This document shows positions 3,796-33,200 of a stretch of 34,662 nt of DNA, piece by piece. Origin of the DNA: a virus; IMG/VR virus record IMGVR_UViG_3300020193_000069, positions 1-34,662 of that record. One strand, 5' to 3'. Each line of letters starts with the position of its first letter. Position 1 is the stretch's first letter. The notes under the pieces were generated by a model, which worked only from the letters and a program-made list of their open reading frames with translations, made no database searches and was not told the origin of the DNA. Both the position numbers and the translations under genes were made by a program.

Positions 3796-6700
3796 ATTAT
3801 CAAATAGTGAAAACATACTTGTAAAAGTTGACCAAAACAATCTTATATATGTTGACCCTAATAGTGTTGTGGACGCTGACGGAAACATACAACCAAGGGG
3901 ATTAAAACAAGAGAATTTGGTAATGTATGTTAATTTGGAAGCAGATTTGATTCCAAGAACAAGACTTGTTGCCGAAGACCAAGGAAGTACTTTAGTTAGT
4001 ATTGCAAAAGGAAATTTAAACTTTTTAAAAAATCAAAGTGGAGATGGGAACTTTGATGCAACTTGGACAGAAGCATTTGTGGGAAATCCCGAATTAAATA
4101 AAGCTAACGACTTTAAAATAAAAGATGATGCGTCATCTAAATTATTTAAAGACGACTATTTCATTAACGATAAATCAGGACAAAGTTTTGGTATTGATTC
4201 AATTAATATAACAGTTAAGGGAGCAAACTTTGCGCCGGCTCAGGTTACAATTAATTTCATTGATGTTAGAGGTAAGGTGTTGTTTGAATCCCATGAGAAC
4301 TCACCATATAACGCATTTTTTCACATCCCGTGGCCAATATTTTATCTAACGGTAAAAGGATACTACGGAAAGGCGATAAGATATAGATTACATTTAATTA
4401 AGTTTAGTACAAGATTTAGTGATACAACAGGAAACTTTGAAGTTTCAACAACATTTGTTGGGTCGAATTATGTATATCTTAATGATATATCATTATCCGC
4501 GATTATTAACTCACCATATATGTTCTTAACCGAAAAGGTTGAAAACAAAAAATTTAATGAGGAAAGTGGTAGGTACCAAAAAACAATATCAAGAGGGTCA
4601 AGAGGGTTTGCAATTTTAAATTCAATCTTTTCTCAATACAAACAGAAAGGTTTGGTACCTAAGGACATGCCAACAAGAACAATTAAAGAATTAGGTTATT
4701 TGGCAGAATCACTTGATAAAATTTTAGAGAAACAAATTTTTAATAATGTAGTTTCGATGGAGGTTTTATCGGGAGTAAGTGAAATTGAAAAAAGTATTGA
4801 TGATTTTGAAAACAATCTAAAAGCGTGGGCCAATATAAATCTATCCAAAGAATACATAATCAAAACAAAAAAAGTTGCGTTAAATAACACAGAGACAACA
4901 AGTGAGAATTGGTATTATACACCTGAGTCAGATAAAACTAAATTAGATAAGATTACGGATAAAGATAAAAATGGTACACTTGAAAAATTAATTGTTAACG
5001 GAACAGAACTTATAAATAAAAATTTAAGTTTTGTTAATAGTAACATGAACAAAACAACCGCAGATTTCAAGAAGGTCACATTAAATAATGTAAAAACCAT
5101 AAAAGAATACTATGAAACTGATGGTAATAAAAAGGTTTTAATTGGTTTCGATAATTTAATAAATGACATACACGAAATAAGAAAAAGTTTTGAGGAACAA
5201 AGAAAAAAACTTGAAGATGAGGTTGAAAGAAAAATGAATGAAATCATTAAAGACCCATCTAAAGGTTTTGGATTTGAACCAACAATTAGAAACATATTTG
5301 CGGTACTTCTTGCAAATGCCGAAGTTTATGTTAGATTGATGAAAGACGTTCATGATAGAGCGTTTGAAAATTCTAAAGCGAGAGCAAAACTACTTTCAGG
5401 ATTAACCGATGAACAAAAGAGTAAAGGACCCGCAATATACCCTTGGCCTGAAGTTAAGAAACCAACATCTGCTGGAAAACAAAATGTTATAGCATACCCT
5501 GGCGACATAGATTTAGTAAACAAACTAAAATCAAATAATAAAAATTTATGGCCTGAGGTTGATTTTGTTGAAGAGTATTTTAAAATAGCCACAAACAGAA
5601 TTGATACCAACACAAAAAATGAACCTACCGTTAGTGAAATAGATTACATTTTCGAAACAGACTTTGACGAAAACAAAATTGATGATATAAGTGGTATTGA
5701 TGTAATGAATGGTTCATCACCGTTTAGAGATAAAGTGTTTTCGTCTTTCATATATGAACTATATGAGAGAGTAAAATACATGACATTATTTGATTCATAT
5801 ACAAATGATTTCTTGAGAATACTTGTCGAGGAAGAATTTGAAAATATATCAGAATCTATCAATGAAGACATTGACCTTGTTCAGTTAGTTAAGAAATTAA
5901 AAACAATTGATGATTTAATTAGAGTTAGAACCGCGGTACCAATGGTCGATGAAAACAATAGACCAATACTGAATTCCGATGGTACACCAAAAACGTCAAG
6001 AGAATATAGTGGTTACTTACCCGGTGTTTCTCCATACAATAGATTCCCTAATTTAAAAGACCACTTACCTACGGTTCCTTATCTAAAAGAAATTATTGAG
6101 TATCCTTTTGTTTTTGAAAAATACAAGGATGTATCAAAACAAACTAAATCATTTAAGAAGGATGAGTTAAATGCTGAATTGGTTAAGTATGTACCTGAAC
6201 CATATAGAAAGAACATATACCCTTTTAACTCAAACCTTTATCTTGATTACCTTAACAAAACATCTTTTACTGATGATAATTTTAAATTTGAAGGAATATT
6301 AAGTATTAATCCAAATCAAGGATTTGTTTGTTCACCAATCGATTCAAGTGCTTGGGTAAAGAGTAATTACAAGACTAATATGTTCCTTAATAAATTTAAG
6401 GTTGCAGATAATTCAGTCAACATTGTTAATACACCATATTTCCATAAACAATTATTTTCAGATTTTAATAATAATGGAATTTATGGAAGATATGTCGGTT
6501 CGGCATATTTGTTATTAACCTCGTTACCATTTTTAGATTTAGAAGATAATATCACATTTAGTGGTAAAACAATATTGATGTCATCTCTTTTTAGAGAAAT
6601 TTCTTCCACACATTTTATTCCCTATCATCTTATGTTAAAATGGGGAGCCATTTATCATAGATACAAAAAGAAAATAATAAATGGTACAGATATTTTAAGT

Positions 6701-9592
6701 GGATTCTTAAACACAAGCAATGTAACCCAACCCATCACCGGTTCTACATTCTTTGATGGGGGATTAACAGGTGCGGTATACACAGCATTTACAATTAGTT
6801 CGACAACAATAACAAATGCAACAGACGTTGGTATTGCACCTTATTATCAAGGTGTTTATCATCAAATTGTTAACGGATATAATCACTATACCATTGTTTC
6901 AGGTAACACATCATATAGTGCTGAAACCACATCAAATAAAATTATACATAAAAAAGAAGTAAATAATAATAAATACTGGTCTGTTTATGTTGATAATTCA
7001 AAGTATATTCCAAAGGATAAGTACTTCACTATTTTACCATCAAATGGTTTCAATAGTAGTGATTTAGTAACAAAAAATACTGAAGACATTTTATTTGCAA
7101 GACAATACAATTTTAGAAGTATTTGGGTTGATGAAAAAATAACCTCAGAGTTTTCAGGAAGAACTTACGCGTCAACATCAGAATACCCAAGAAGTTACAC
7201 CTCGGGTTCTACAACTGATAATGTTTATTCAATTGATACAAATTATAGAAAAGTAATTGATTTAATAGGAACATTTAGTCCCGCAATACTTGAGGCATTT
7301 GAAGAAATGTTTTTAGACTTTGCAACTGAAAAAGGTAACGCTGAGTTACCATATCAGAAATTCTTGAATGTGTACTATCCAAAGTTTCAAGATTTACTAA
7401 AAGATATATCAACAGTACTAAAGGGAGATTCGGATGTTATTGGTTCCGACGACCTACTAAAGTCAATAAAAGAAAGACAAGAACAAAAGCTACAAATCGT
7501 CACATCAAATATTTTGAATAGTGAAAACCTAATAAAGTTCACTTTAGCAAATCCAAAAGAAATTGACCCATATAGTTTTTATGGAATGGGGGCACCGGCT
7601 CAATCGACATATATGGAACTATCTTTTAATGTTGCGGATTTAACAGCAACAAATTTAGGTTTTATTAATTTATACATGGGTGAAGATATTGATGGATATT
7701 ATGTAAACTTCTTTTCAATTAATGATATAAAGTTAAATGAAGAGAATATCATAAGATATAGACCAATGGCACAAATCTATGGGGGATATAGAAAAGCTGA
7801 TGGAGTTAACACTACCGCGGCATTTAAAGAATATTTAAAAAACTCAATATTTGAGGGCTCCACAAACAAAATATATGCCGGTGGTGCTAACAAAAGATTA
7901 GAATACTTTTTAGGAGAATTATTAAAAAAGATTAGTTCGGACAACGGAATTAATCTAAATAGAAATGACAACTATATAAATCTTTATAGAGGATACAACA
8001 CAGACCAAACCAAAATCGAAGTTTATAATACTTTTAAGTCGTTTAATGATAAATGGACCGCAGGTAATTCAATTGGCCAGAGATTATTGTTGGAAGAGTT
8101 TTTATTCTTAGACAAAGCAAATAGAGATATTGGAGATAAGTTTTATCTAAACATAGATAAAATTCTACCATTATTAGATGCGAAAAATGCAAAGGTTCCT
8201 TTGTATGGTGCAATTTCCATGTTAATACAAGGAACGGGACTTGATATGAGAGCGCTTCCCGCATATGTTAATTTCTACGGTACTAACTTTAAAAACAAAA
8301 CTAAAATTCAACCATCTAAATCAGTTGCAAAAAACTTGTTTGGTACTTTCTTAGAAGTTGATTATCAAGAATCTTCACCAAAGATTATAATACAACTTAT
8401 GGGTAACACATCAAAAAGACCTGACATGTCAAACAGCAAACAATATAAATTTTCCGATGATAGTTTTTACATTGGTGGGTCAACACCGAATCCATTATTG
8501 ATAACATCCTTAGAAAGTTTTTCACAAAACGATTTATCTAAATCTAATAGAGTAGTTGCGTTTGAGGTAAGCTTCGGTGACCAAAATCAAGGAATATTTA
8601 AGGGTTTAGACCTTGACCAAGCGACTTTAAAAAATACATCAGAATCTTTTGTTGTGTTGGAAAATTTGGCAAGGTCAGAAGGAGGAGCTGGAGCATATAA
8701 TGTTGATGTTGGTTTATTTGATTACTATAAACAAGCCGCTTATAGATGTGGTGTTACCTGTATGGGTAACGTAATGATTCAACCAACTATGTACTTTTAT
8801 TTGAAAAATGTTCCAATGTTTAGAGGAACATATTTGATAATAGATGTTGAACACACAATTAAGAGTAATGTTATTAGTACAAAATTTAGTGGTGGTAGAA
8901 TACCTTATACCTCATTACCCGACCCTAAGGATTCATTCATTTCGAGTTATAGAGTGTTATTTGATAAAATGACAAGTAGGGCTAAATCGGTATTAAAACA
9001 AAAAAAGGCAATCGAGGGTACAACCAAGACAGTTGTATTTGACGGTGTCACATATTTTACAAATATGGGGACAAAATCAATAGAAGGAGAAGACTTTACA
9101 AAATCAACACCAAAAGTGGGTATAACAGAGTTTGGTGTACCATATAACGGATATGATAACGAACCCGATATTCAAAAGGTTGATTACACATCAGGTAGTG
9201 GAACAGAAACTTGGCTTAGGGCTATTGTAATTAAAATGGGAGGGGAAAAATATCCTATTGAATCAGGAACAACCATGAACGTTGCGGAAGGAATCAAATG
9301 GTCTGATGTTAGTGGTTCAGATATGAAGTTTTACAATACCAAGTTCCAACTCGGTACTGCGAATGCTCAAAAAATAAGAACCGCAAAAACAGAATTCAAA
9401 AACCCTCAGAATGGTAAAACATATACATTACAACCAAGTTATCAATTAGTACCGGGTTCAGGACCCTTATCAGTACAAGGGCCAATATCGGTAGGTCCAA
9501 AAGTAGAGGGATATGGTATGGGTATGTCGCCAAAACTAATGGATGAACTTAAAATAGATACAGGTGAAGTAATATACTTCAAAATGTCTTAA
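3782..9592 (+). CDS. Giant baseplate/hub structural protein
   Basis: A 1936-residue protein. Near residues 180-240 a conserved-looking beta segment (HIPWPIFYLTVKGYYGKAIR, then GNFEVSTTFVGSNYVYLNDI) resembles proteins of large T4-like phage tails. Residues about 290-520 are charged and helical. Residues about 1661-1710 carry VMIQPTMYFYLKNVPMFRGT, YLIIDVEHTI and TKFSGGRIPY; this 'cavity plus F-R-G-T-Y-x-I-x-x-V-x-H' arrangement is typical of tail hub proteins of the gp27/gpD kind. The last 100 residues are Gly/Lys-rich and end in a small beta region (ELKIDTGEVIYFKMS). I infer a hub protein fused to extra peripheral domains. T4 gp27 is only about 390 residues, so this is several times larger. 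No lysozyme or peptidase motif is obvious. The start overlaps the gp53-like gene by 14 bases. The structural role is likely; the hub assignment is moderate. Confidence 0.6.
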   Translation: MGNSELSNSENILVKVDQNNLIYVDPNSVVDADGNIQPRGLKQENLVMYVNLEADLIPRTRLVAEDQGSTLVSIAKGNLNFLKNQSGDGNFDATWTEAFVGNPELNKANDFKIKDDASSKLFKDDYFINDKSGQSFGIDSINITVKGANFAPAQVTINFIDVRGKVLFESHENSPYNAFFHIPWPIFYLTVKGYYGKAIRYRLHLIKFSTRFSDTTGNFEVSTTFVGSNYVYLNDISLSAIINSPYMFLTEKVENKKFNEESGRYQKTISRGSRGFAILNSIFSQYKQKGLVPKDMPTRTIKELGYLAESLDKILEKQIFNNVVSMEVLSGVSEIEKSIDDFENNLKAWANINLSKEYIIKTKKVALNNTETTSENWYYTPESDKTKLDKITDKDKNGTLEKLIVNGTELINKNLSFVNSNMNKTTADFKKVTLNNVKTIKEYYETDGNKKVLIGFDNLINDIHEIRKSFEEQRKKLEDEVERKMNEIIKDPSKGFGFEPTIRNIFAVLLANAEVYVRLMKDVHDRAFENSKARAKLLSGLTDEQKSKGPAIYPWPEVKKPTSAGKQNVIAYPGDIDLVNKLKSNNKNLWPEVDFVEEYFKIATNRIDTNTKNEPTVSEIDYIFETDFDENKIDDISGIDVMNGSSPFRDKVFSSFIYELYERVKYMTLFDSYTNDFLRILVEEEFENISESINEDIDLVQLVKKLKTIDDLIRVRTAVPMVDENNRPILNSDGTPKTSREYSGYLPGVSPYNRFPNLKDHLPTVPYLKEIIEYPFVFEKYKDVSKQTKSFKKDELNAELVKYVPEPYRKNIYPFNSNLYLDYLNKTSFTDDNFKFEGILSINPNQGFVCSPIDSSAWVKSNYKTNMFLNKFKVADNSVNIVNTPYFHKQLFSDFNNNGIYGRYVGSAYLLLTSLPFLDLEDNITFSGKTILMSSLFREISSTHFIPYHLMLKWGAIYHRYKKKIINGTDILSGFLNTSNVTQPITGSTFFDGGLTGAVYTAFTISSTTITNATDVGIAPYYQGVYHQIVNGYNHYTIVSGNTSYSAETTSNKIIHKKEVNNNKYWSVYVDNSKYIPKDKYFTILPSNGFNSSDLVTKNTEDILFARQYNFRSIWVDEKITSEFSGRTYASTSEYPRSYTSGSTTDNVYSIDTNYRKVIDLIGTFSPAILEAFEEMFLDFATEKGNAELPYQKFLNVYYPKFQDLLKDISTVLKGDSDVIGSDDLLKSIKERQEQKLQIVTSNILNSENLIKFTLANPKEIDPYSFYGMGAPAQSTYMELSFNVADLTATNLGFINLYMGEDIDGYYVNFFSINDIKLNEENIIRYRPMAQIYGGYRKADGVNTTAAFKEYLKNSIFEGSTNKIYAGGANKRLEYFLGELLKKISSDNGINLNRNDNYINLYRGYNTDQTKIEVYNTFKSFNDKWTAGNSIGQRLLLEEFLFLDKANRDIGDKFYLNIDKILPLLDAKNAKVPLYGAISMLIQGTGLDMRALPAYVNFYGTNFKNKTKIQPSKSVAKNLFGTFLEVDYQESSPKIIIQLMGNTSKRPDMSNSKQYKFSDDSFYIGGSTPNPLLITSLESFSQNDLSKSNRVVAFEVSFGDQNQGIFKGLDLDQATLKNTSESFVVLENLARSEGGAGAYNVDVGLFDYYKQAAYRCGVTCMGNVMIQPTMYFYLKNVPMFRGTYLIIDVEHTIKSNVISTKFSGGRIPYTSLPDPKDSFISSYRVLFDKMTSRAKSVLKQKKAIEGTTKTVVFDGVTYFTNMGTKSIEGEDFTKSTPKVGITEFGVPYNGYDNEPDIQKVDYTSGSGTETWLRAIVIKMGGEKYPIESGTTMNVAEGIKWSDVSGSDMKFYNTKFQLGTANAQKIRTAKTEFKNPQNGKTYTLQPSYQLVPGSGPLSVQGPISVGPKVEGYGMGMSPKLMDELKIDTGEVIYFKMS

Positions 9593-9848: not shown

Positions 9849-10526
9849 ATGAGTAAATTAGAAAAAAAACTATTAGAAGAAGTTGCTAGATTTAAAGAAA
9901 TCAACAAATACGCAACTAAATTAATGAACGAACAGGAAATTCCACCCCCTCCAGCGGACCCTGCGGCAGTGGCTCCACCTATGGATGCCGGTGCTGGAGC
10001 ACCCACCCCTCCACCTATGGATGCCGGTGCTGGAGCACCCACCCCTCCACCTATGGATGCCGGTGCTGGAGCACCGCCACCAGTTGGGGGAGGAGAAGAT
10101 ACAACCGAAGAAATCGATATCACCGATTTAGTTAATATGACCAAATCAATTAAAAAGGATTTGGACAATAGCAGGGGTGAGAACCAAGGAGTTGTTTCTA
10201 AGATGGACGATGTGTTCACTAAATTGAACGACTTAGAACAAAAATTGGCAGATATGGATGCTGTTATGGCTAAGATTGACGAATTGGGCTCTAAGATTGA
10301 ACAAGTAAAAGAACCAACCCCTCAAGAAAGACTTGAGATGCGTTCATTAGATTCATATCCCTTTAATCAAAACCCACAAGAGTTCTTTTCACAAAAACAA
10401 GGTGAAATGAGGGCAAGTGGTAAAAATGAGTATGTCTTAACCAAAGACGATATTCAGAATTATTCACAAGAAACAATAAGAGATACGTTTAATAAACAAG
10501 ACGACCAAGATGAATTTAGGTTCTAA
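9849..10526 (+). CDS. Pro/Ala/Gly-repeat and coiled-coil protein, function unknown
   Basis: A 225-residue protein with three visible parts. Residues 1-30 form a charged helix (LEKKLLEEVARFKEINKYAT). Residues about 31-85 are a low-complexity linker with three tandem copies of PPMDAGAGAPTP (residues 43-54, 55-66 and 67-78, the last altered at its end). Residues about 115-156 are a heptad-like coiled coil (KLNDLEQKLADMDAVM). The C-terminal part contains LEMRSLDSYPFNQNPQEFF and a Tyr/Asp/Asn-rich tail. The repeats are almost identical in DNA and are GC-rich in an AT-rich phage. There is no enzymatic motif. The position directly after tail genes suggests a minor structural or assembly protein, possibly oligomeric through the coiled coil. 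Its last 17 bases overlap the Dps-like gene. Confidence 0.7.
   Translation: MSKLEKKLLEEVARFKEINKYATKLMNEQEIPPPPADPAAVAPPMDAGAGAPTPPPMDAGAGAPTPPPMDAGAGAPPPVGGGEDTTEEIDITDLVNMTKSIKKDLDNSRGENQGVVSKMDDVFTKLNDLEQKLADMDAVMAKIDELGSKIEQVKEPTPQERLEMRSLDSYPFNQNPQEFFSQKQGEMRASGKNEYVLTKDDIQNYSQETIRDTFNKQDDQDEFRF
9975..10082 (+). repeat. Three tandem 36-bp in-frame repeats
   Basis: The unit encodes PPMDAGAGAPTP. Copies start at 9975, 10011 and 10047. The first two are identical in DNA, and the third diverges only after its 'gcacc'. The unit is much richer in G+C than its surroundings. Near-identity at synonymous positions points to recent duplication, so copy number may vary between relatives. Confidence 0.9.
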
Positions 10527-10884
10527 AGTAAATTTTTTATTAGGACTACATCTACAATTAAAAATTAACCACTGGCAAACAAAGGGTATCGCAAGACACG
10601 AAGCGTTTGGTAATACTTATAATGATTTCACAGAATTAATTGATGAATTCGTTGAGATTGCTATGGGTAAGTATGGTAGATTTGTTTTAGATGATGAGAC
10701 TAATAATATAAAACTTATAAACCTGTCGGAGATGAATCCAAAAGACATGATTACAGTATGTGTCGAAGGTATCATCCAATTTACAGAAGACTTAGACCCA
10801 TCCAAAGACACAGACCTTTTAAACCTAAGGGATGAGATGCTTGGTTTGTTAAACAAACTTTTGTATCTTTTAACTTTAGAGTAA
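10510..10884 (+). CDS. Dps/ferritin-like small protein
   Basis: A 124-residue, largely helical protein. Residues 13-57 look like the first helices of Dps: HLQLKINHWQTKG, then RHEAFGNTYNDF and ELIDEFVEIAMGKYGR. H30, D45 and E49 keep the exact H-x14-D-x3-E spacing of the Dps ferroxidase centre (H43/D58/E62 in Listeria Dps). H21, in the HW pair, matches the other histidine with a loop three residues shorter. Dps proteins bind and oxidise iron at dimer interfaces and form 12-mers; whether this protein does so is inference. It is shorter than typical Dps (about 150-170 residues), and the C-terminal half (LEGLLNKLLYLL-like) is divergent. The start overlaps the repeat gene by 17 bases, and a strong terminator follows. 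It could instead be a structural phage protein that reuses the fold. Confidence 0.6.
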   Translation: MNLGSKVNFLLGLHLQLKINHWQTKGIARHEAFGNTYNDFTELIDEFVEIAMGKYGRFVLDDETNNIKLINLSEMNPKDMITVCVEGIIQFTEDLDPSKDTDLLNLRDEMLGLLNKLLYLLTLE

Positions 10885-10972: not shown

Positions 10973-11821
10973 ATGTCTACATTTGATGCAGTTTTAGCTC
11001 AGTATGAGAAAAACAAACAAGCCGCTGGCGGCAGTTCAAACAAAGTTTCACAAGAAGAACGATTAAAGAAGTATTTTACTACCCTGTTACCAAAAGGTGC
11101 CCGTAGTGGTGAAAAACGTATTAGAATCCTACCTACCACAGATGGTGGTTCACCATTTAAAGAGGTGTATTTCCATGAGGTTCAGGTGGACGGTAATTGG
11201 GTTAAACTATATGACCCAAAACAGGATGGTAAACGTTCACCCCTAAACGAGGTGTACGATGCACTCAATATGACAGGACTTGAATCCGACAAGGTTCTTG
11301 CTCGTCAATACAGAGCTCGTAAGTTCTATATTGTAAAAGTTATCGATAGAGAGAACGAACCGGATGGTGTTAAGTTCTGGCGTTTCAAACACAATAGTAG
11401 AGGTGATGGTGTATTAGATAAAATCTTTCCTTTATTTAAAAACAAAGGCGATATCACCGATGTAAACATTGGTCGTGACCTTATCATTACTTTGGGATTA
11501 ACCAAAGCCGGTAATGGTCGAGAGTATACTACAATCACATCTATCATCCCCGAAGACCAAAATCCACTACACACAGATAAGGGGACTTCTGACTCATGGG
11601 TAAACGATGATTTGACATGGGCGGATGTATATTCTAAAAAACCCGAAGAATATTTAGAAATGGTTGCCAAAGGTGAAGTTCCAAAGTGGGATAGTGAAAC
11701 CAAAAAATGGGTTTCTAATTTAGAAGAAAGTGGAACAATCATGCCCCCCTCTTCGCCTACAACTACAAAACCAGTAGACCCACAAGAAAGTGATGGCGCG
11801 GATGATGACCTCCCATTCTAA
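10973..11821 (+). CDS. 32: gp32-like single-stranded DNA-binding protein with bacterial SSB-type tail tip
   Basis: A 282-residue protein. The core, with RIRILPTTDGGSPFKEVYFH near residue 48 and KFWRFKHNS near residue 128, resembles the OB-fold of T4-like gp32 proteins, which coat single-stranded DNA during replication and recombination. The protein has no cysteine at all, so the zinc ribbon of T4 gp32 is absent. After a Pro/Ser/Thr-rich linker (about 250-270) it ends in an acidic tail, DGADDDLPF. DDDLPF is practically the tip of bacterial SSB (DDDIPF), which recruits host repair and replication proteins. It is a single-gene unit: a promoter candidate and terminator lie before it, and a hairpin terminator lies after it. 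This suits a protein needed in bulk. The start ATG has an A/T-rich leader without Shine-Dalgarno. The ssDNA-binding call is confident. Confidence 0.85.
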   Translation: MSTFDAVLAQYEKNKQAAGGSSNKVSQEERLKKYFTTLLPKGARSGEKRIRILPTTDGGSPFKEVYFHEVQVDGNWVKLYDPKQDGKRSPLNEVYDALNMTGLESDKVLARQYRARKFYIVKVIDRENEPDGVKFWRFKHNSRGDGVLDKIFPLFKNKGDITDVNIGRDLIITLGLTKAGNGREYTTITSIIPEDQNPLHTDKGTSDSWVNDDLTWADVYSKKPEEYLEMVAKGEVPKWDSETKKWVSNLEESGTIMPPSSPTTTKPVDPQESDGADDDLPF

Positions 11822-11889: not shown

Positions 11890-12921
11890 ATGGTTATTAA
11901 GAAAAAAGATTTTTCAATTTCTAGTATAACATCCAAATACTCAAGTAAAATGACCTACAAACCTGATAGGTTTTTAGATTTGGGTAACGCATTTTTGGAC
12001 GCAACGGGTTTACCTGGTCCTGCTCTTGGACACATTAACATGTTCCTTGGTCACACGGATACAGGTAAAACAACCGCATTATTGGCGGCAGCTGCGGACG
12101 CAATTAAAAAGGGTATATTACCCATCTTCATTATTACAGAACAAAAGTTCAACTTTGAACACGCAGAGATTATGGGCGTTCCGGTTAAAGAAGATGTTAA
12201 TACCGATACAGGTGAAATTACTTTCACAGGTGATTTCATTTTTAGAAATGATTTCGAGTATATTGAACAAATTACTGACTTTATTAATGAAATGATTGAT
12301 GCACAAGAAAATGGTGAAATACCATATGACCTATTGTTCCTTTGGGATTCTGTTGGTTCTGTACCATGTAAGATGACCTGGGAAGGTAAAGGTGGTAAAC
12401 AACACAACGCATCAGTTCTTTCTGATAAAATTGGTATGGGTATTAACCAACGTATTTCAGGTTCAAGAAGAGCGGATAAGACAAACACGAATACTCTTGT
12501 GATTGTAAATCAACCTTGGGTAGAACTTCCAAGTAACCCATGGGAACAACCAAAAATCAAAGCTAAAGGGGGCGAATCAATTTGGTTAAACTCAACACTG
12601 GTTTTCCGTTTTGGAAATGAGAAAAATGCTGGTATTACCAAAATCTCTATCACAAAAAATAAGAGAACCATTACTATCGCAACCAGAAGTAAAATTTCAG
12701 TAATGAAGAATCATGTTAATGGTATTGCGTTCGCAGATGGAAAAATTATGGTAACGCCACACGGATTCATGAGAGCAAAAGAAACAGCAGAAGAAAAGAT
12801 TTCAAGGGAAAATTATATTAAGGAACATCTTGATTACATAAGTAAACTATTCGGAGAATCAGTTACAAATGTTACAGATATTAAGTTTGAACCTATAGCT
12901 GACGAAGATACTGAAGATTGA
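11890..12921 (+). CDS. uvsX: UvsX/RecA-family recombinase
   Basis: A 343-residue ATPase that would load on ssDNA displaced or coated by the gp32-like protein and catalyse strand exchange for recombination-dependent replication and repair. Walker A is GHTDTGKT (residues 54-61). A catalytic glutamate is likely at E84 (TEQKFN). Walker B is LLFLWDSVG (about 148-156, D153). The NQPW segment near residue 213 and KAKGGES near residue 229 match the L2 and base regions of RecA/UvsX. The C-terminus is acidic (IADEDTED), as is common in RecA proteins. It is a little shorter than T4 UvsX (about 390). It opens the run uvsX, nuclease, unknown, helicase, nrdB, nrdA, with short gaps and no internal terminator, so one operon is likely. 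Recognition as UvsX rather than host RecA rests on length and neighbours. Confidence 0.92.
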   Translation: MVIKKKDFSISSITSKYSSKMTYKPDRFLDLGNAFLDATGLPGPALGHINMFLGHTDTGKTTALLAAAADAIKKGILPIFIITEQKFNFEHAEIMGVPVKEDVNTDTGEITFTGDFIFRNDFEYIEQITDFINEMIDAQENGEIPYDLLFLWDSVGSVPCKMTWEGKGGKQHNASVLSDKIGMGINQRISGSRRADKTNTNTLVIVNQPWVELPSNPWEQPKIKAKGGESIWLNSTLVFRFGNEKNAGITKISITKNKRTITIATRSKISVMKNHVNGIAFADGKIMVTPHGFMRAKETAEEKISRENYIKEHLDYISKLFGESVTNVTDIKFEPIADEDTED

Positions 12922-12952: not shown

Positions 12953-13972
12953 ATGTCTAATATTTTATTGGTTGATGGAGATAATTTATTAACCATTGGT
13001 TTTTTTGGATTAAAGAATCACTTTTACAAGGGTAATCATATTGGTGGATTATACCACTTCATCAATACTCTTAGAAGAGCTATTGAGACACATAGATTAG
13101 ATAAGGTAGTGGTATTTTGGGATGGTAAAGAAGGTTCATCATCTCGCAGAAGATACTACCACCACTATAAAGAAAACAGAAGGGAACGAATTAGAAGTGA
13201 GGAACAAGTCCACTCTTACGGACAACAACGAAATAGAGTAAAACAATACCTCGAAGAGTTGTTTGTGAGACAAGGAGAATACGACTATTGTGAAACAGAT
13301 GATTCCATAGCATATTATGTCCAACACTCAAATGAAGGTATAATTATATTCTCATCTGACGGAGACCTTACCCAACTTGTATCGGAGAACACAAGACTAT
13401 TCAATCCCACACATAGTCGAATGTATCAACCTAACGATATGTTTGTCTATGACCACGAGGAGATTCGAATAGAGAACATCAAAATTGTAAAGATGTTATG
13501 TGGTGACCCATCTGATAATATTGCAGGTATAAAGAATCTTGGTGTCAGAAGACTTCTCACCATGGTTCCCGAACTAAAGACCGAGGGAATTACATTAGAC
13601 TTCATTAGAGACCGATTTAACATCTTATTTGAGGAAGACAAGGATAATCGTCTTATCACTAATCTTCTAACTGGAGTGACCAAATACGGAGTATTTGGAG
13701 AGGAATTTTTTGATGTCAATAATAGAATTGTGAGTCTTGACGAACCATTCCTAACGGATGAAGCAAAGGAGTCGATTATTTCCTTAATAAACGACCGATT
13801 AGACCCCGAAGGACGTTCATATAAGAATATGATGAAAATGATGACAGAAGACGGAATCTTCCTTCTCCTTCCCAAGTTAGATGATGCATGGATAAACTTC
13901 TTAAACCCCTTTTTAAGATTAACAAGAAAAGAAAAAAATAAAAAAATAATTAAAATAAAAACCAATGACTAA
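12953..13972 (+). CDS. rnh: FEN-family 5'-3' exonuclease / RNase H (T4 rnh-like)
   Basis: A 339-residue nuclease of the PIN/FEN superfamily. Metal-binding acidic residues sit in the expected order: LLVDGDN (D8, D10), VFWDGKEG (D57), CETDDSIAYY (E114, D116, D117), SSDGD (D136, D138) and GDPSDNIAGI (D185, D188). The last is followed by a helix-three-turn-helix, KNLGVRRL. The Arg/Tyr-rich segment at residues 65-81 fits the helical arch. T4 RNase H (305 residues) removes RNA primers and adjacent DNA from lagging-strand fragments; the same role is inferred here. The C-terminus is Lys-rich (RKEKNKKIIKIKTND). The stop overlaps the next gene by eight bases (ATGACTAA), which suggests coupled translation. 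A flap endonuclease with other repair roles is the alternative within the same family. Confidence 0.9.
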   Translation: MSNILLVDGDNLLTIGFFGLKNHFYKGNHIGGLYHFINTLRRAIETHRLDKVVVFWDGKEGSSSRRRYYHHYKENRRERIRSEEQVHSYGQQRNRVKQYLEELFVRQGEYDYCETDDSIAYYVQHSNEGIIIFSSDGDLTQLVSENTRLFNPTHSRMYQPNDMFVYDHEEIRIENIKIVKMLCGDPSDNIAGIKNLGVRRLLTMVPELKTEGITLDFIRDRFNILFEEDKDNRLITNLLTGVTKYGVFGEEFFDVNNRIVSLDEPFLTDEAKESIISLINDRLDPEGRSYKNMMKMMTEDGIFLLLPKLDDAWINFLNPFLRLTRKEKNKKIIKIKTND

Positions 13973-14408
13973 TCAAGATGTAACTAAATTCGAATTTCTT
14001 TTAACTCTTGAAGGAAACATTATTTGCCAACGTTATTTTAATGTCAGGGGTCATAACCCAAAATCTCGTCGTTCACTCAACATGCATTATTATGTGAAAA
14101 ATATTTGTGACGAAATTTTTGAAGATTTAAAAATAAAAACTTCGGATTATCTCTACGAAAATCGTGAATATTTTTATGGTTTGGGGTCTGCAGAAGCCAC
14201 GGAAGATACCTCGAAAGAAACTTTTTTGTTGGAAATTAAGATGGGTGACGAAGTATTTATTCAAAGGGTGTTCCCCGCGTATTTCTTTCATCCAAAAACG
14301 AGATATACGGTGGACATTCGTCCCCACCTGAAGAGATATTTGGCGGAGTTAACCGCTATTTTATCATCTGAAGAACTGGAAACAAGATACTTGAACCATA
14401 AATTATAA
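13965..14408 (+). CDS. Unknown 147-residue protein with internal duplication, in the replication cassette
   Basis: I do not recognise a family. The protein appears to be two copies of one roughly 45-residue alpha/beta unit. Copy 1 (about 11-55) contains FLL...QRYF...NPKSR...K...E. Copy 2 (about 87-133) contains FLL...QRVF...HPKTR...K...E. From Q22 to I51 and Q100 to L129 the copies align without a gap; Q, R, F, P, K, R, K and E coincide. A Tyr-rich stretch, then an acidic linker (about 57-86), joins them. The PK-x-R and QR residues could bind nucleic acid or a partner; that is inference. The gene starts inside the nuclease stop (eight-base overlap) and lies 20 bases before the helicase, the neighbourhood where a helicase loader or a replisome accessory might be encoded. 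No resemblance to T4 gp59 was evident by eye. Confidence 0.75.
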   Translation: MTNQDVTKFEFLLTLEGNIICQRYFNVRGHNPKSRRSLNMHYYVKNICDEIFEDLKIKTSDYLYENREYFYGLGSAEATEDTSKETFLLEIKMGDEVFIQRVFPAYFFHPKTRYTVDIRPHLKRYLAELTAILSSEELETRYLNHKL

Positions 14409-14428
14409 AAAAATAATATATATATACA

Positions 14429-15802
14429 ATGAATGAAAAGAATTTTGGTACGTTAGGAACGTCATTTCAACAAGCATTATTAAGGTCAATTATAGAGGAT
14501 AAAAAATATGGAGAACAAATTATCGATGTAATCGAAAGTAAATATTTCGACAACGTATCGTTCAAATTCATTTCAGAGTGCATTAAAGAATATTATAAGA
14601 CGCACAGCAAATTACCAGACTATCAGAGTTTGGCAATTAAAATTATTGCAGAGATGGGGTCTCGAGAGAATGCAAAAATTCACTTAGATACACTTGAATC
14701 CATCAAAACAAATACACAAGATAATTCTATTGTTAAGGACGAAGCGTTGAATTTCTGTAAACAACAGAACCTAAAGAAGGAATTAAAGAAAATCAATACC
14801 ATCATCGAAAACGGAGCATTCCAAGACTACCCAAAGATTGAAACTATTATTCAGAAGGCGATGCAGGTAGGACTTCCTCCTGAAGAATCAATGGACGTAT
14901 TTCATGATATTGATGCCACTTTAGAAAAAGATAATAGACAAGCAATTCCAACAGGAATTACAGGAGTTGATAATGTTCTTAAAGGTGGTTTAGGTAGAGG
15001 TGAACTTGGGGTTGTATTAGCACCTACCGGAACAGGTAAGACAACATTATTAACATTATTCTCAAACACAGCATACAATCATAATTTTAACGTACTTCAA
15101 ATATTCTTCGAGGACAATCCATCAAATATCAAAAGAAAACACTTTACCATTTGGACAGGAATTGAGTCAGATGCACAATCCGAAAGAAAAGATGAGGTTA
15201 AGAAAATTATTGAGGAAATTAAAGAAGTAAATACGGGTTCACTTAGTACAATGAAGTTACCAAGTGACTCTGTCACCATTTCTGAAATTAAATCAAGAAT
15301 AAGAAAACACTTGTCTGATGGTAAAAAGTTAGACCTTTTGGTAATCGATTACGTGGATTGTATTTCACCTGAAAGATGTATTTTCGGTGAAGAATGGAAA
15401 AGTGAGGGTTCTGTTATGAGAAGTATTGAGGCTATGACCCATGAATTTGATATTGCAATATGGACAGCAACTCAAGGAAATAGAGAATCAATCTCATCTG
15501 AAGTAGTTACTGCCGACCAAATGGGTGGGTCAATCAAAAAGGCACAGATTGGTCACGTTGTATTATCCGTTGGTAAAACACTTGAACAAAAAGAACACAA
15601 CCTGGCAACAATGACACTTCTTAAATCACGTATTGGTCAAGATGGTATTATTTGGAACAACTGCAAGTTTGATAACAAATATCTAAAAATTGATACTGAA
15701 AGTCAAACAACACTTCTCGGTCACCAAGAAGAAAAAGTAAAAACAAATACCAAAAGGGCGGCTGACGCATTTAAGAGACGACAAGAGTTACTTAATCGGT
15801 AG
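14429..15802 (+). CDS. 41: Replicative DNA helicase, DnaB/gp41 family
   Basis: A 457-residue hexameric-type helicase. The N-terminal helical domain (about 1-150) is followed by the RecA-like motor. Walker A is APTGTGKTT (residues 198-206, K204). FFEDNPS just downstream carries the usual catalytic acid position. Walker B is LLVIDYVD (D307). A TATQGNRES segment near residue 347 corresponds to the sensor/motif 3 glutamine region, followed by DQMGGS and KSRIGQDG near residue 405, where the arginine finger of DnaB-family helicases lies. It would unwind the fork 5'-3' on the lagging strand, as T4 gp41 does. No primase gene lies in the window, and no primase domain is fused. The C-terminus is Lys/Arg-rich (KRAADAFKRRQELLNR). 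The start ATG follows an AT-alternating run (14415-14426) with no Shine-Dalgarno. Confidence 0.93.
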   Translation: MNEKNFGTLGTSFQQALLRSIIEDKKYGEQIIDVIESKYFDNVSFKFISECIKEYYKTHSKLPDYQSLAIKIIAEMGSRENAKIHLDTLESIKTNTQDNSIVKDEALNFCKQQNLKKELKKINTIIENGAFQDYPKIETIIQKAMQVGLPPEESMDVFHDIDATLEKDNRQAIPTGITGVDNVLKGGLGRGELGVVLAPTGTGKTTLLTLFSNTAYNHNFNVLQIFFEDNPSNIKRKHFTIWTGIESDAQSERKDEVKKIIEEIKEVNTGSLSTMKLPSDSVTISEIKSRIRKHLSDGKKLDLLVIDYVDCISPERCIFGEEWKSEGSVMRSIEAMTHEFDIAIWTATQGNRESISSEVVTADQMGGSIKKAQIGHVVLSVGKTLEQKEHNLATMTLLKSRIGQDGIIWNNCKFDNKYLKIDTESQTTLLGHQEEKVKTNTKRAADAFKRRQELLNR

Positions 15803-15819
15803 TCCTATAAATTTAATAA

Positions 15820-16794
15820 ATGAAAGAAAAGATTTTACAAGAAAATCCTGGCCGTTTTGTCCTCTTTCCAATCGAACACCACGATATATGGAAGCTTTAT
15901 AAACAACAAGAAGCGTGTTTTTGGACGGCCGAGGAAATTGATTTAGCACAAGACATCAATGACTGGGGAAACAAATTAAATGATGATGAACATCATTTCA
16001 TTAAACACGTTTTGGCGTTTTTTGCGGCATCGGATGGTATCGTAAATGAAAACCTGGCGATGAATTTTATTAACGAAGTTCAATTCACAGAAGCTAAAAT
16101 GTTTTATGGTTTCCAAATCATGATGGAAAACATTCATAGTGAAACCTATTCACTTTTGATTGATACATATATTAAAGATAAAGAAGAACAGAATCGTTTA
16201 TTTAATGCGATTGAAACTGTACCCGCTATCAAGAAAAAAGCAGAATGGGCAATCAAGTGGATTAACGCTGACTCATTCGTTGAACGACTTGTCGCGTTTG
16301 CTGCAGTTGAGGGTATTTTCTTTTCTGGCTCATTTTGTTCTATTTTTTGGCTCAAAAAACGTGGTTTAATGCCAGGATTAACGTTCTCAAATGAGCTGAT
16401 TTCTCGTGACGAGGGAATGCATTGTGACTTTGCTTGTCATTTGTATAACAATCATATTCAAAAGAAACTTACACAGACTAAAATAAAAGAAATCATTTGT
16501 AGCGCATTAGAGATTGAAAAAGAGTTTATTCTTGAGGCACTACCGGTTCGTTTAATTGGTATGAATTCAGATTTGATGTCTCAGTATTTGGAGTTCGTTA
16601 CCGACAGATTGTTAATGTCTTTGGGTGTACCTAAAGTATGTAATTCAAATAACCCATTTGATTTTATGGAGAATATTGCAATTCAAGGTAAAACAAATTT
16701 CTTTGAAAAAAGAGTTGCCGAATATCAAAAAGCGGGTGTGGCAACAACATCGTCTATTGAAGACATAACAAACATTGATGACATTTATTTTTAA
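15820..16794 (+). CDS. nrdB: Class I ribonucleotide reductase, beta (radical) subunit
   Basis: A 324-residue ferritin-like R2 protein that makes the radical needed by NrdA to reduce ribonucleotides. All the di-iron ligands are present with the spacing of E. coli NrdB: D72 (ASDGIV), E103 and H106 (ENIHSETY), E164 (VEGIFF), and E198 and H201 (RDEGMH). The radical tyrosine is Y110, four residues after H106, as in the E. coli enzyme. So it looks like an active tyrosyl-radical enzyme rather than a Tyr-less variant. The C-terminal tail (TNIDDIYF) ends in an acidic/aromatic tip suited to docking on NrdA. It precedes nrdA by 12 bases in the same direction and follows the helicase by 17. CTATAAATTT at 15805-15814 just before the start is AT-rich and may be a promoter or chance. 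Confidence 0.97.
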
Positions 16795-16806
16795 TTATTT
16801 TTAAAA

Positions 16807-19242
16807 ATGAAAGTTAAAAAAAGAGACGGCTCCTTTGAGGAGATGAGATATGATAAAATCACAAAAAGAATGCAATATTTCTGTGATGATTTGAATATAG
16901 AATATGTTGACCCAACACTTGTTACATTAAAAGTAACTCAAGGAATTTACGACGGTATATCGACAGTAGAATTAGATATTCTTGCTGCCGAGACCGCAGC
17001 GTCTCTTGTTACCACACATCCCGATTATGCTAAATTATCTGGTAGACTTGCGGTATCTAATCTACACAAGACAACCCCTAAGAAGTTTTCACAATGTATA
17101 AAAGAGTTACACTCATTCATTGAATCTAAAACAGGTAAAGAGTCCTCATTGATTTCTGACGAGGTATATCAATTTGTAATTCAAAATAGAGAAGCATTAG
17201 ACGGAGCAATTAGACAAGAACGTGATTTGGATTTTGATTATTTTGGATTTAAAACTTTGGAACATTCATATCTTTTGAAGATTGGTAAAAGAATTGTTGA
17301 AAGACCTCAATATATGTATATGAGGGTTGCCGTTGGTATTTGTAATGGAGATTTAGAAATGGCTTTGAGAGTTTATGATGATTTATCACAACATTTCTAC
17401 ACTCACGCAACTCCGACATTGTTTAATGCCGGTACTTGTAGACCACAAATGTCTTCTTGTTTCTTAATTGGTAATAAAGGCGATGACATTGATGGTTTGT
17501 TTGACACAATTAAAGACGTTGCTAAAATTTCAAAGTGGGCTGGCGGTATCGGACTACATGTTCATGACGTTAGAGCTAAGGGTTCATATATTAAAGGAAC
17601 AGGTGGTGAATCAGACGGACTACTTCCAATGATGAAAACGTACAATGAAGTTGCTCGTTGGATTAATCAAGGTGGTAAAAGAAAAGGTTCTTTCGCGATT
17701 TATCTTGAACCATGGCACTCAGATGTTTTTGAATTTATCGATTTAAGAAAAAACCATGGTAAAGAAGAACTACGTGCAAGAGATTTATTCTTAGCAATGT
17801 GGACCCCAAGTTTGTTAATGAAAAGAGTCGAAGAAGATGGTGATTGGTCGTTATTCTCACCTGATGAAGCACCGGGTTTATCTGACAAATACGATGACCC
17901 ATTTTCATTCACTCAAGAATTTACCGAATTGTATGAAAGATATGAGAAAGAAGGAAGAGCGAGAAAGGTTGTAAAAGCAAGAAAACTAATAGATGCAATC
18001 TTGACTGCACAAATTGAAACAGGAACACCTTATATGTTATATAAGGACCACGCAAATTACAAATCAAATCAAAAGAATTTAGGCACAATCAAATCTTCAA
18101 ATTTATGTACTGAGATTATTGAGTACTCAAGTCCAACAGAACAGGCTGTTTGTAATTTAGCGTCAATTGCATTACCAAAATATATTGTTGATGGCGAATT
18201 CAGTCATCAACTTTTATATGGATACGTGTACCAATTGGTAAAGAATTTAAACAATGTAATTGATTTAAACTTCTACCCAACTGAAGAAACAAAACTTTCA
18301 AATATGAGACACCGACCCGTTGGTTTAGGTGTACAGGGATTAGCAGATGTATTTTGTATGTTATCAATTCCATTTGAAAGTGAGGGCGCCGACAAACTAC
18401 AAACTGAAATTTTTGAAACTATCTACTTCGCAGCACTTGTTTCATCAAAAGACATTGCAAAAGAAAATGGGGCATATGAAAGTTTTCTGGGCTCACCATT
18501 ATCTGAAGGTATTTTTCAATATCAATTGTGGTGTAAAACCGATAAAGACACAAGTGGTCGTTGGGATTGGAAATCTCTGAGAAAAGAGGTTGTTAAATTC
18601 GGTGTTAGAAATTCCTTATTGGTTGCACCGATGCCAACAGCGTCTACCGCACAAATCTTAGGTAATAACGAATCGTTTGAACCATTTACTTCAAACATAT
18701 TCTCAAGAAGAACACTTGGTGGTGAGTTTATCGTGGTCAACAAGCACTTGGTTAAAGCATTACTTGAAAGAAACATATGGTCGGACGACATTAAAAATAA
18801 ACTAATCATGGAAAATGGTTCAGTTCAAAATATCCCTGAAATCCCAACGGATATCAAAGAGGTATTTAAGACTGTTTGGGAAATGTCTCAGAAGAAGATT
18901 TTATCTATGGCTGCCAATCGTTCAATCTATATTGACCAATCACAATCATTAAATTTATTTATCGATAATGCTAGTAAACAAAAAGTATTAGCCGCACACC
19001 TTTATGGTTGGAAACTTGGTTTAAAAACTGGTATGTACTACCTAAGAACAAGAGCGGCTGTTGACCCACTAAAAGGACTTGGAATCGATACATCAACAGT
19101 AAAACCGGTGGTTGAGTCTGTCGAAGTACCAACTACTAATAATTTTATTCAGGATACATCTGAAGAGGTTAAGATGACTGAAATGCTAAACACACCAAAA
19201 CCAACAGACTCACCATTTGAATGTGAAGGTTGTGGTTCCTAA
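16807..19242 (+). CDS. nrdA: Class I ribonucleotide reductase, alpha (catalytic) subunit
   Basis: An 811-residue R1 protein that reduces ribonucleoside diphosphates to deoxy forms with NrdB. An ATP-cone regulatory domain starts the protein (KKRDGSFEEMRYDKITKRM). Catalytic residues are intact: C218 (SSCFLI), N432/C434/E436 (NLCTEI), C449 (VCNLAS) and the radical-relay pair Y744-Y745 (GMYYLRTR). The C-terminal redox pair is C806 and C809 in SPFECEGCGS. The C434-C449 spacing of 15 and the CxxCGS ending match eukaryotic R1 (human ends CLMCGS) more than E. coli NrdA, where the spacing is 23. PTASTAQILGNNESFEPFTS matches the conserved barrel loop. It follows nrdB, and a terminator lies 25 bases after its stop. 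Phage-encoded reductase boosts dNTP supply. Confidence 0.97.
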   Translation: MKVKKRDGSFEEMRYDKITKRMQYFCDDLNIEYVDPTLVTLKVTQGIYDGISTVELDILAAETAASLVTTHPDYAKLSGRLAVSNLHKTTPKKFSQCIKELHSFIESKTGKESSLISDEVYQFVIQNREALDGAIRQERDLDFDYFGFKTLEHSYLLKIGKRIVERPQYMYMRVAVGICNGDLEMALRVYDDLSQHFYTHATPTLFNAGTCRPQMSSCFLIGNKGDDIDGLFDTIKDVAKISKWAGGIGLHVHDVRAKGSYIKGTGGESDGLLPMMKTYNEVARWINQGGKRKGSFAIYLEPWHSDVFEFIDLRKNHGKEELRARDLFLAMWTPSLLMKRVEEDGDWSLFSPDEAPGLSDKYDDPFSFTQEFTELYERYEKEGRARKVVKARKLIDAILTAQIETGTPYMLYKDHANYKSNQKNLGTIKSSNLCTEIIEYSSPTEQAVCNLASIALPKYIVDGEFSHQLLYGYVYQLVKNLNNVIDLNFYPTEETKLSNMRHRPVGLGVQGLADVFCMLSIPFESEGADKLQTEIFETIYFAALVSSKDIAKENGAYESFLGSPLSEGIFQYQLWCKTDKDTSGRWDWKSLRKEVVKFGVRNSLLVAPMPTASTAQILGNNESFEPFTSNIFSRRTLGGEFIVVNKHLVKALLERNIWSDDIKNKLIMENGSVQNIPEIPTDIKEVFKTVWEMSQKKILSMAANRSIYIDQSQSLNLFIDNASKQKVLAAHLYGWKLGLKTGMYYLRTRAAVDPLKGLGIDTSTVKPVVESVEVPTTNNFIQDTSEEVKMTEMLNTPKPTDSPFECEGCGS

Positions 19243-29288: not shown

Positions 29289-30206
29289 ATGGCAGTAGGT
29301 AGTTATGGAATAATTAGACCGGCAGATGTATCACCCGAGGACGTAGAAATATATTATCACTACGTTTCAGGTAGAACAAATAGTGCAACTGCAACCCTTA
29401 AAAGGTTAAGTTCAGCCGATGTTTTAACCCCCGTTTTTCACAATTCAAATACAACTGATGATGCCGCGGCACCAAACGTTGAGATTTTGGGTGGTATGTA
29501 TAACTTAAAGTTAGCTTCTTCAGATTTCTCTGAATTGGGAATATATACCCTACATATTAGACCTAAACAGATACGTACAACAATCACGGATTGTGGTATT
29601 TTGGCATCATTACCTTCTGTTAGAGGTTTGGTTATTGATTTAAGTAATGTACCAGCCGCAGACAGGAATAAGTTTACTCCACAAGGTTTGGTTGGTTATA
29701 GAATAGAATATATTAACACGTCGGATAATAAGAAAATCACCAACTTCTACAGAGTTGTAACATCTTCATTTTATTGTACTCCAATTGTGTCTAACTTAAC
29801 AAGCACTTCACAAAAAGCCATCAGATATCAATATAGTGAACAAGCAACAAATTTGATGTTTTTGACTGTTACACCATCCTCAGCACCATCAAATAAACCA
29901 AATACGGTTCCCTTTATTGGTACACCATCACAAAAAATTATTTTAACAAATACATTTTTTAACCCAACAACAATTGAGGTTGAAATGGTTGAACACGATG
30001 CTGGTACATTGGCTAACGCATTGTATGGTAATCAAACTAAAGCTGTTTCACAAGGTATCTACACCATTTATGACAATAATAATAACATATACAAACAGTA
30101 CAATCTTTACGAAGTCAAAGACGAATTTAATGAGACATTATATGAAGTTCGTGAAGAAAGGACTGACATAGATGAGACACTAAACTTTGATACGATTACC
30201 GAATAA
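29289..30206 (+). CDS. Structural protein, function unknown (VGSYGIIRPADVSPEDVEI family)
   Basis: A 305-residue protein. The N-terminus (AVGSYGIIRPADVSPEDVEI) leads into a beta-rich domain with EILGGMYNLKLASSDFSELG and IYTLHIRPKQIR, then LVGYRIEYINTS and FYRVVTSSFY. The C-terminus (about 225-305) is helical and polar, with TIYDNNNNIYKQYNLYEVKD. I recall similar sequences from large T4-like phages but know no function. It is preceded by a short gap with the TATATTTAT element and overlaps the next gene by one base (TAATG). Its place between baseplate proteins and the giant fibre-like protein suggests an adaptor, which is inference. Confidence 0.65.
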   Translation: MAVGSYGIIRPADVSPEDVEIYYHYVSGRTNSATATLKRLSSADVLTPVFHNSNTTDDAAAPNVEILGGMYNLKLASSDFSELGIYTLHIRPKQIRTTITDCGILASLPSVRGLVIDLSNVPAADRNKFTPQGLVGYRIEYINTSDNKKITNFYRVVTSSFYCTPIVSNLTSTSQKAIRYQYSEQATNLMFLTVTPSSAPSNKPNTVPFIGTPSQKIILTNTFFNPTTIEVEMVEHDAGTLANALYGNQTKAVSQGIYTIYDNNNNIYKQYNLYEVKDEFNETLYEVREERTDIDETLNFDTITE

Positions 30207-33200
30207 TGGCGAAAAGAAAGGTACCAAGCCAAGCGCCAAGTGGCGCGGCAACATTTAATGATAATCTTGTTGGTAGACAAATTACCAACGGAAGTTCGGC
30301 GCTTGTTAATACCTCATTTGACATTGATAAAACTATACCTGATAAAGATTCTAAAAGTTTTAGAAAAAATCCATTTTCTGAGTTTCTTACTTTAGATAAT
30401 ATAAAAAAAGAAGACACTAAAACAGACGTAACAACTCAGCAACCTACAAGTTCTGCGGCCAAAAGAAGTAAATCGATAAGATTTCGTAACGATAAACAAA
30501 ATGCAGATAAGTCTTTATATGGTTCTTTAAGAGAAAGAATTTTGGTATCGATTACCAAAATTATAAAAAAATTCCCCGCAGCATTACAAGTAATTGCCGA
30601 TAGTCCTATAGGTGTGAACTTATTCTCAGCGTTTAATATTTCATATAGTAATAGTTTAGACAGAACAACATTCACAATTCAGTTAAGTAAAGTTTCAAAT
30701 CCATTTGGAATTATTTTATCTGAACCAAATAGTGCGATTAAACCTACAAGTGAAAATGAATTAAGAAATCTATATTCATCAAACAATAAGTATGTTTTAT
30801 ATATAAATGGCGAATCGTACCCTGTATTTCAATATACAGAGCCAAATTCTTCAAATGAAATAGTTTTTGTTGTAATTGGTCAACCATTTACAGGTTCTAC
30901 AAGTACAACAAACTTTATAATCAGACCAAATGATGGTATTGTTGAAGAATTTTACAATGGATTAGATGATGTTGAATCTTCATTACTCAATAGAGATACA
31001 AGCCCAACATACACATCAAATTTTAGAATTCCGAGAGATAGTCCCGATGGTTCAAAGGTTACAATTCAAAACGTTGAGTTTAGCTGGCCAACATTAGGGG
31101 ATGGATGGAACATACAAATTTATGGTCTTGACTATGAATTATATGTACAAAGTTTAAAAGATGTTTGTGATGAGATTGATACATTTAAATCAAACACAAT
31201 TGTTAGATTTTTAACATCACCACAATTATTAGAATTTGACACCGCAGACCAAAGAGCTCAAAGTGTATTTCAACTTTACGGACAAAGTTTTGACCAAGTA
31301 AAAAAATACATAGACAACATTGCTTACATGAGAAATGTGAGTTATGATGGTATTAATAACTTACCCGATATTTTATTAAAGAATTTATCTGAGAATCTCG
31401 GGTTATCAACTACAAATCTATTTGATGAAAAATCATTAGACGATGTATTATATACTCGTTTAGATTCGTCTTATGGTGGAGTATCCACTGGTTTTAATTT
31501 AGTTGATGCCGAACATGAATTCTACAGAAGATTATTAGTCAATCTTGCATATATCTTTAAATCAAAAGGAACAAGAGCATCTATTGAGTTCTTCTTAAAA
31601 TTCTTAGGAGCTCCCGAACCATTAATAAAAATTAATGAGTATGTCTATCAAGTAACATCAATGCCCGTGAGTTTTGATTTAGAACAAGACATATACAATG
31701 TTATTGTTGGAGAAAAAACTTTTATAACGGGTCAATTTAATACAACAGGGTACACATATACTAAGATTACCACCACTGGCTCAACAGGATTTGATAGAGA
31801 AGGTTATCCTGTTGACCCTGACACAGGGTTACCAAGAAAAGCGTTTAGTCTTACTGAAGACATTTTCTTCCAAAAAGGTGCGGGATGGTATGATATTACA
31901 TTAGACCACCGCTCACCAACGATTATAGATACCGAAAACTCAATTCTCACTGGTAGAACAAAAACAATTAAAACAAAAAATAAACCTTTTACTTATGGTG
32001 AGGATTATTTTAACGTGTTCAGAAAACTACCCGGATTAGATACGGGTTATGGTTTACAAACAGATATTGACAATACAAAAGCTCACGATGTATTGGATGG
32101 TTCGTCTTTAATTTTGAATAGAAAAAATATTAATATTCATATTTCAGCGTCTAACGCGATTAATTTTGATTTATTTAGAAAAAGTAGAGATTTAGAAATT
32201 TCATTCGGTTCAACAAATTTATTATCACCACAAACAGGGGTAACGTTTGCACAATTTACAAACAATTTTATTCACAAAGTAATAAAGAACTCTCATACAA
32301 TTAGATATAAAAAGAATTATATTGTTCTTGAAGATATCTATAGAGATTATTTTTCTCAAACTTCATTCAAACCATATACGTTTATTGATGCTGCTGAATT
32401 TGTAAATAAAATCAGCCCTTATTGGGTTCAATTAGTAGAACAATTGGTTCCCGCAACTACACTGTGGACAGGAGGTAATCTAATAGAAAACAATTTATTT
32501 GGTAGACCGAAATATCCATACATATTTGATTGCCAACCAATGGAATTTATCGAGGACTTATATCCCGATTTTGAAACCGCAATTGAAGAAGACGTTGAAA
32601 CTTTACTCGGTGAAGAAAATAATTTTAGAGGATTAATAAACTTGACTGGTGTAACATACTATCCAATAATCGAAATTGATGGGGTTATTTATGGTGGTCC
32701 ATCATATACAGGTTTAACAACAGGAATGACTGTTGTGGTTAGCGGTACATCAAATACAACAAATAGTGCTAAGTTATATGACCCATTCCCAATGACGGGA
32801 TGTACCGACTTAGTGAGTAATGACCCTGTAAATCTTGCACTTATTTGTGATTATAAAGATTATTTAGAACCTGATATTGTTAAAATTAAACAACTATGGG
32901 TTGAAGCGTTGACTAATCTTATTGGTTCAATAACAATATCAAGATATGGTTCAGGTTACTATGCTTACGCACCATTCACAGGAACAACCGGACAAACATA
33001 TGTAACCGAAACTTTACCAATGGTAAGTTATGAAATCTTTACAGATGAAAATGGTGAAGAAATGATTAAGTTTTCATCCATAAAATATGGTATTGGGAAT
33101 TGTTCGGTAAAAGATTATTTTGATTATAGATTTGAGGCGGATTATCAGACAATAAAATCAAATGATAGATTAAGTGTACAAGTTAGTGGTAATGGTGAAT

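Follow-up and report, generated by a model that had tools for sequence, protein, structure and literature searches.

A pseudo-dimeric protein encoded between exonuclease and helicase in the replication operon of uncultured T4-type phages

The window analyzed here comes from an uncultured virus, of which it covers a fragment of 34.7 kb, and it encodes the protein called X below. The X reading frame is wedged between an RNase H-like nuclease gene, which it overlaps by eight bases, and the gene for the replicative helicase, a placement that the original prediction had given correctly. Its start codon falls inside the last codons of the exonuclease gene, which ends at 13972, and 20 bases separate it from the helicase start at 14429. 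A gp32-like SSB and a UvsX-like recombinase are encoded upstream of the exonuclease, and nrdB, nrdA and gp25 follow the helicase. The features considered below are:

10973-11821, plus strand: gp32-like ssDNA-binding protein, same operon as X (PF08804, 1.3e-10)
11890-12921, plus strand: UvsX/RecA-like recombinase, same operon as X (phrog_97, 1.3e-10)
12953-13972, plus strand: 5'-3' exonuclease/RNase H (T4 rnh-like), upstream neighbor of X (PF02739, 7.9e-26; phrog_107, 3.7e-31)
13965-13972, plus strand: eight-base overlap of exonuclease stop and X start, ATGACTAA; of the 253 loci in which it was measured, 206 share this offset
13965-14408, plus strand: protein X, a 147-aa pseudo-dimeric replication-operon protein (open reading frame; at least 597 IMG/VR relatives; dN 0.03-0.21 against dS 0.25-1.7)
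13980-14159, plus strand: unit 1, residues 6-65, with strands 6-15 and 18-28, a short helix 32-36 and a long helix 38-65 (AlphaFold2 model, pLDDT about 90)
14181-14219, plus strand: variable linker between the units, residues about 73-85, modeled with low confidence (pLDDT 57 in block 71-80) and least conserved
14220-14363, plus strand: unit 2, residues 86-133, with strands 86-93 and 96-104, a short helix 110-113 and a helix 119-133 (AlphaFold2 model; in register with unit 1 at +78)
14364-14405, plus strand: conserved C-terminal tail, residues 134-147, consensus SSEELETTYLNYxL (E139, Y142, L143 and L147 do not vary among 74 homologues)
14429-15802, plus strand: replicative helicase (gp41/DnaB-like), downstream neighbor of X (phrog_19, 7.9e-59; PF03796, 1.8e-15)

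Several other genes lie around this operon. Ahead of it, in the window and in most relatives, is a gene for a 225-aa protein (9849-10526) in which three tandem Pro/Ala-rich PPPMDAGAGAPT units precede a coiled-coil-like stretch, and a 124-aa protein (10510-10884) matches both DUF5856 (5.6e-15) and a PHROG annotated as starvation-inducible transcriptional regulators; most related loci likewise have its gene immediately ahead of SSB. The nrdB and nrdA genes occupy 15820-19242; in at least 16 related loci the next recognized gene after the helicase is gp25, and the nrdB-nrdA pair looks like an optional island. A large open frame (30206-34660, 1485 aa) runs off the window end with a Thr/Pro/Ser-rich repeat at its end (TPTPTSTQTLTPTPT...), and its product is probably a structural or tail protein. 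Some X-bearing phages (L217-L220) also encode a 270-aa sigma-70-family sigma factor of a type that looks unlike T4 gp55.

The sequence of X is internally duplicated. Local alignment of the N-terminal against the C-terminal half scored 54, compared with 23.5 ± 4.4 for shuffled sequences, and none of 5000 shuffles reached that score. On the family profile, built from 74 homologues, residues 9-61 along the offset-78 diagonal scored 43.1 against 16.2 ± 2.9 for 2000 column permutations, whose maximum was 33.9, and hhalign of the N-half against the C-half profile gave P of about 4e-4. AlphaFold2 modeled X as two β-β-α-α units (pLDDT 86.9, pTM 0.80). We compared the units by the positions of their secondary-structure elements, in place of coordinate superposition, and found that the match peaks exactly at offset 78 with an identical order of elements; a second model, of a homologue 56% identical to X, has the same layout with the units again in register at +78. 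Both models thus show two units in place of a single non-repeated fold, and both halves are conserved among homologues, with mean majority frequencies of 0.83 in the N unit and 0.85 in the C unit against 0.54 in the linker. Together, the half-versus-half alignment, profile diagonal, hhalign comparison and models demonstrate that the duplication is real and bear out the predicted pseudo-dimeric architecture; neither of the two outcomes that the original prediction had named as fatal to it, one unrepeated fold or conservation of one half alone, was obtained.

At the level of individual residues the proposed repeat holds in part. The alignment is gap-free from Q22/Q100 onward, as proposed, and FLL is present in both copies, but the two FLL motifs pair only across a two-residue gap. 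Across the 74 homologues the pairs conserved in both copies are F9/F87, R23/R101, F25/F103, R35/R113, D39/D117, K45/K123 and L55/L133, so that the R, F, R and K of the proposed QR-F, PK-x-R, K and E coincidences stand. The remainder do not: the Q is invariant in copy 1 but kept at 68% in copy 2; PK never varies in copy 2, while copy 1 has P at 59% and most often Q at residue 33; and the E that coincides in the window protein is not conserved among homologues.

The original prediction had also described the protein as unrecognized and as carrying conserved basic residues. The first description was confirmed by every library searched. Neither Pfam, NCBIfam nor PDB sequences returned a match, PHROG returned weak, marginal ones only, and a literature search found nothing on the protein. 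Among 38 unit-1 sequences, 17 weakly matched phrog_10862 (65 aa; best E 8e-4) and 15 matched phrog_7845 (78 aa; best E 7e-4). We found no reliable copy of a single-unit gene of either type in the T4-type and X-bearing phages searched, and a search of eight X-bearing genomes turned up no paralogue of unit 1; the best genomic match to phrog_10862 lies inside a sigma factor and was judged spurious. A Foldseek search of the PDB with the X model likewise gave no significant similarity to solved structures: matches to LepA and TEAD, none with E below 0.15 or TM above about 0.3, were treated as noise. Two uncharacterized phage proteins in BFVD do resemble X; matches to herpesvirus LORF proteins in the search that returned them (query TM about 0.4, identity 7-11%) were again discounted as noise. 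A0A6J5L9R9, from an uncultured Caudovirales phage, matches over its full length (TM 0.93/0.91, 38% identity over 147 columns), a match reproduced starting from the second X-family model, and belongs to the same family. A0A8S5LA10, a 279-aa protein of Myoviridae sp. ctPuP5, is more distant (E 1.8e-5 and 3.4e-6, query TM 0.67-0.76, about 20% identity); it is almost twice as long as X and aligns with a large overall rmsd. X represents a phage protein family that has no name. Foldseek does not recover its two-unit fold from solved structures, and the models suggest that this fold is new.

As to the basic residues, R23/R101, R35/R113 and K45/K123 are conserved at equivalent positions of both units, but PK is not kept in copy 1 and the family as a whole is acidic, with a median pI of 5.1. 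Because of this acidity, X is more readily seen as a protein adaptor than as a DNA binder. A nucleic-acid binder that grips ssDNA, a fork or a primer-template through the three paired basic positions is the least probable of the roles we weighed, its appeal lying in the duplicated basic positions, and the acidic pI and the lack of significant similarity to any solved PDB fold speaking against it.

Relatives of X occur in at least 597 IMG/VR stretches and reach down to about 55% identity with the window protein; 148 distinct sequences were obtained from 386 open reading frames, a figure that does not count phages since the loci overlap. Searches of INPHARED with full-length X and with a unit-1 consensus gave chance-level matches only, and scanning 84,980 bacterial and archaeal species genomes with the chosen patterns turned up no relative. 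Wherever a locus extends far enough to display it, the order SSB-uvsX-exonuclease-X-helicase is preserved, and 269 of 273 loci passed a strict test of exonuclease-X-helicase spacing. The four failures arise because the helicase carries an intein, which shifts the best helicase match downstream. In L199, where this was read (6448-8907; also present in L299-L301), the intein interrupts Walker A (GTGK / intein / TTLL) in an 820-aa open frame. When loci were instead selected by a divergent helicase, X was present in 53 of 55, and the remaining two are cut at contig ends. The fixed order, the spacing and the helicase-selected sample support the proposed placing of X in the replication cassette, as a constant member.

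The same type of operon also occurs without X. We did not detect the gene in the operons of Flavobacterium phage immuto, Microcystis phage Mel-JY01, the uncultured phage LR756508, and loci L416 and L418, in all of which the helicase directly follows the exonuclease. The immuto operon (MW353176) runs SSB-recombinase-exonuclease-helicase-nrdB-nrdA, a gene order as in the window, and its helicase begins 20 bases after the exonuclease. Given this adjacency in five sister operons, X is either an addition in the X-bearing clade or was lost in the lineages that lack it.

Within the clade that carries it, X is under strong purifying selection, with dN/dS of about 0.1-0.2 in six comparisons (dN and dS ranges as listed above). 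Its mean pairwise distance of 0.295 compares with 0.284-0.293 for helicase, exonuclease, SSB and UvsX. Given the low dN/dS and a divergence rate equal to that of its operon neighbors, X behaves as a core gene and not as an optional moron. Among distance matrices, the partial correlation of X is highest with the helicase (0.39), followed by UvsX (0.25), the exonuclease (0.15) and SSB (0.15). This mirror-tree analysis of 60 loci cannot separate interaction from shared history, and the helicase correlation is both modest and confounded by gene adjacency.

These values bear on the possibility that X partners or regulates the RNase H/flap exonuclease and is produced stoichiometrically with it through translational coupling. 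The eight-base overlap kept in 206 of 253 loci would fit such a partnership, but coupling of this kind is common in phage operons, the partial correlation with the exonuclease lies below that with the helicase, and operons without X carry an exonuclease of similar length; we regard this role as distinctly unlikely.

The analyses do not separate the three roles put forward in the original prediction, helicase loader, clamp-like adaptor and nuclease partner. We infer that X acts in replication with the helicase as its partner, in loading or tethering it. X is probably a missing part of the replication machinery in uncultured T4-type phages, and the reading we favor, if tentatively and at somewhat less than even confidence, is a replisome adaptor or loader acting on the gp41/DnaB-type helicase. 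Pointing this way are the fixed operon order, the presence of X in nearly all helicase-selected loci, the divergence rate shared with its neighbors, the highest partial correlation and the acidic pI, together with the position of gp59 after T4 rnh and the lack of gp59 and UvsY matches in 12 X-bearing phages, both taken up below. Against it stand the same-type operons without X, the modest correlation with a gene that is also adjacent, and the lack of a sequence relation to gp59.

Under the helicase-directed reading, a β-β-α-α unit duplicated in tandem long ago would have given rise to X as a clade-specific core replisome accessory protein, a single chain of which would present two similar faces in the manner of a homodimer. 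The overlap of its start with the exonuclease stop would couple their translation, such that X would be made just ahead of the helicase. X would then contact the helicase protein-to-protein, as loader or adaptor, and may tie it to the gp32-like protein on ssDNA or to processing of the lagging strand. If X does act on the helicase, sister operons with and without the gene offer a clear test. Even without a mechanism, X counts among the core genes of viruses that are abundant. It is a constant extra mid-operon protein in a widespread T4-type group; no library names it, no solved structure resembles it and no isolate in the phage collection searched (INPHARED) bears it.

T4, whose replisome is the textbook one, provides the comparison for each remaining reading. 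There rnh is followed by dsbA, 33 and 59, so that the helicase loader gp59 is encoded just downstream of rnh, and by analogy the position of X after the exonuclease would point to either helicase loading or late transcription. The second option corresponds to an expression regulator within the replication operon, either a RegA-like translational repressor or a gp33/DsbA-like late-transcription factor. X does occupy the place of dsbA and 33 directly after rnh; it is, however, unrelated in sequence to gp33 and DsbA (probability 0.5% each). Its acidity would be untypical of a protein that binds RNA or DNA, and its evolution keeps pace with that of the helicase, which leaves a regulator unlikely. 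As for the first option, gp59 acts on the gp41 helicase, an action that we propose by analogy for X as well, but gp59 (1c1k) is 217 aa long against 147 aa for X. X has no match to the Pfam T4_Gp59 family and an hhalign probability of 0.2% with gp59, and 1c1k is absent among the PDB fold matches listed for X, whose model consists of two β-β-α-α units.

Ranking next after the helicase adaptor or loader, though doubtful, is a recombination mediator that stands in for T4 UvsY and, through an unrelated fold, assists the UvsX-like recombinase in displacing gp32-like protein from ssDNA. UvsY, which serves gp32 and UvsX functions, is similar to X in size at 137 aa; X shares its operon with gp32-like and UvsX-like genes, and UvsX gives its second-highest partial correlation. 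Yet X does not adjoin uvsX, sitting between exonuclease and helicase, and it has no match to the UvsY profile (PF11056), with 4zwq, 4zwr, 4zws and 4zwt absent among its listed PDB fold matches. The 12 X-bearing phage records (114-311 kb) contain no match to gp59 (PF08994) or UvsY, and the same searches found both in T4, P-SSM2 and HTVC008M. The missing UvsY match would suit a mediator, as the missing gp59 match would suit a loader; however, two tested sister phages without X also lack both matches, which tempers the case for a mediator and makes the absence of gp59 weak evidence for X as loader. Those sisters either need no loader or have one that is unrecognizable.

Profile comparisons led us to reject a direct relation of X to gp59, UvsY, gp33 or DsbA. 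X may work like gp59 or UvsY while being a member of neither family, given that the profiles and folds tested do not match. The broader proposal is that replicative-helicase loaders or adaptors include a new class, with X as its founder: a pseudo-dimer in one chain, built by duplication of a small unit, with a fold unseen in the PDB, that replaced gp59-type loading in a widespread uncultured T4-type clade. We consider this rather doubtful. Should X act on the helicase, the step served by gp59 in T4, helicase loading or coupling, would have been re-invented in these phages through a duplicated small fold.
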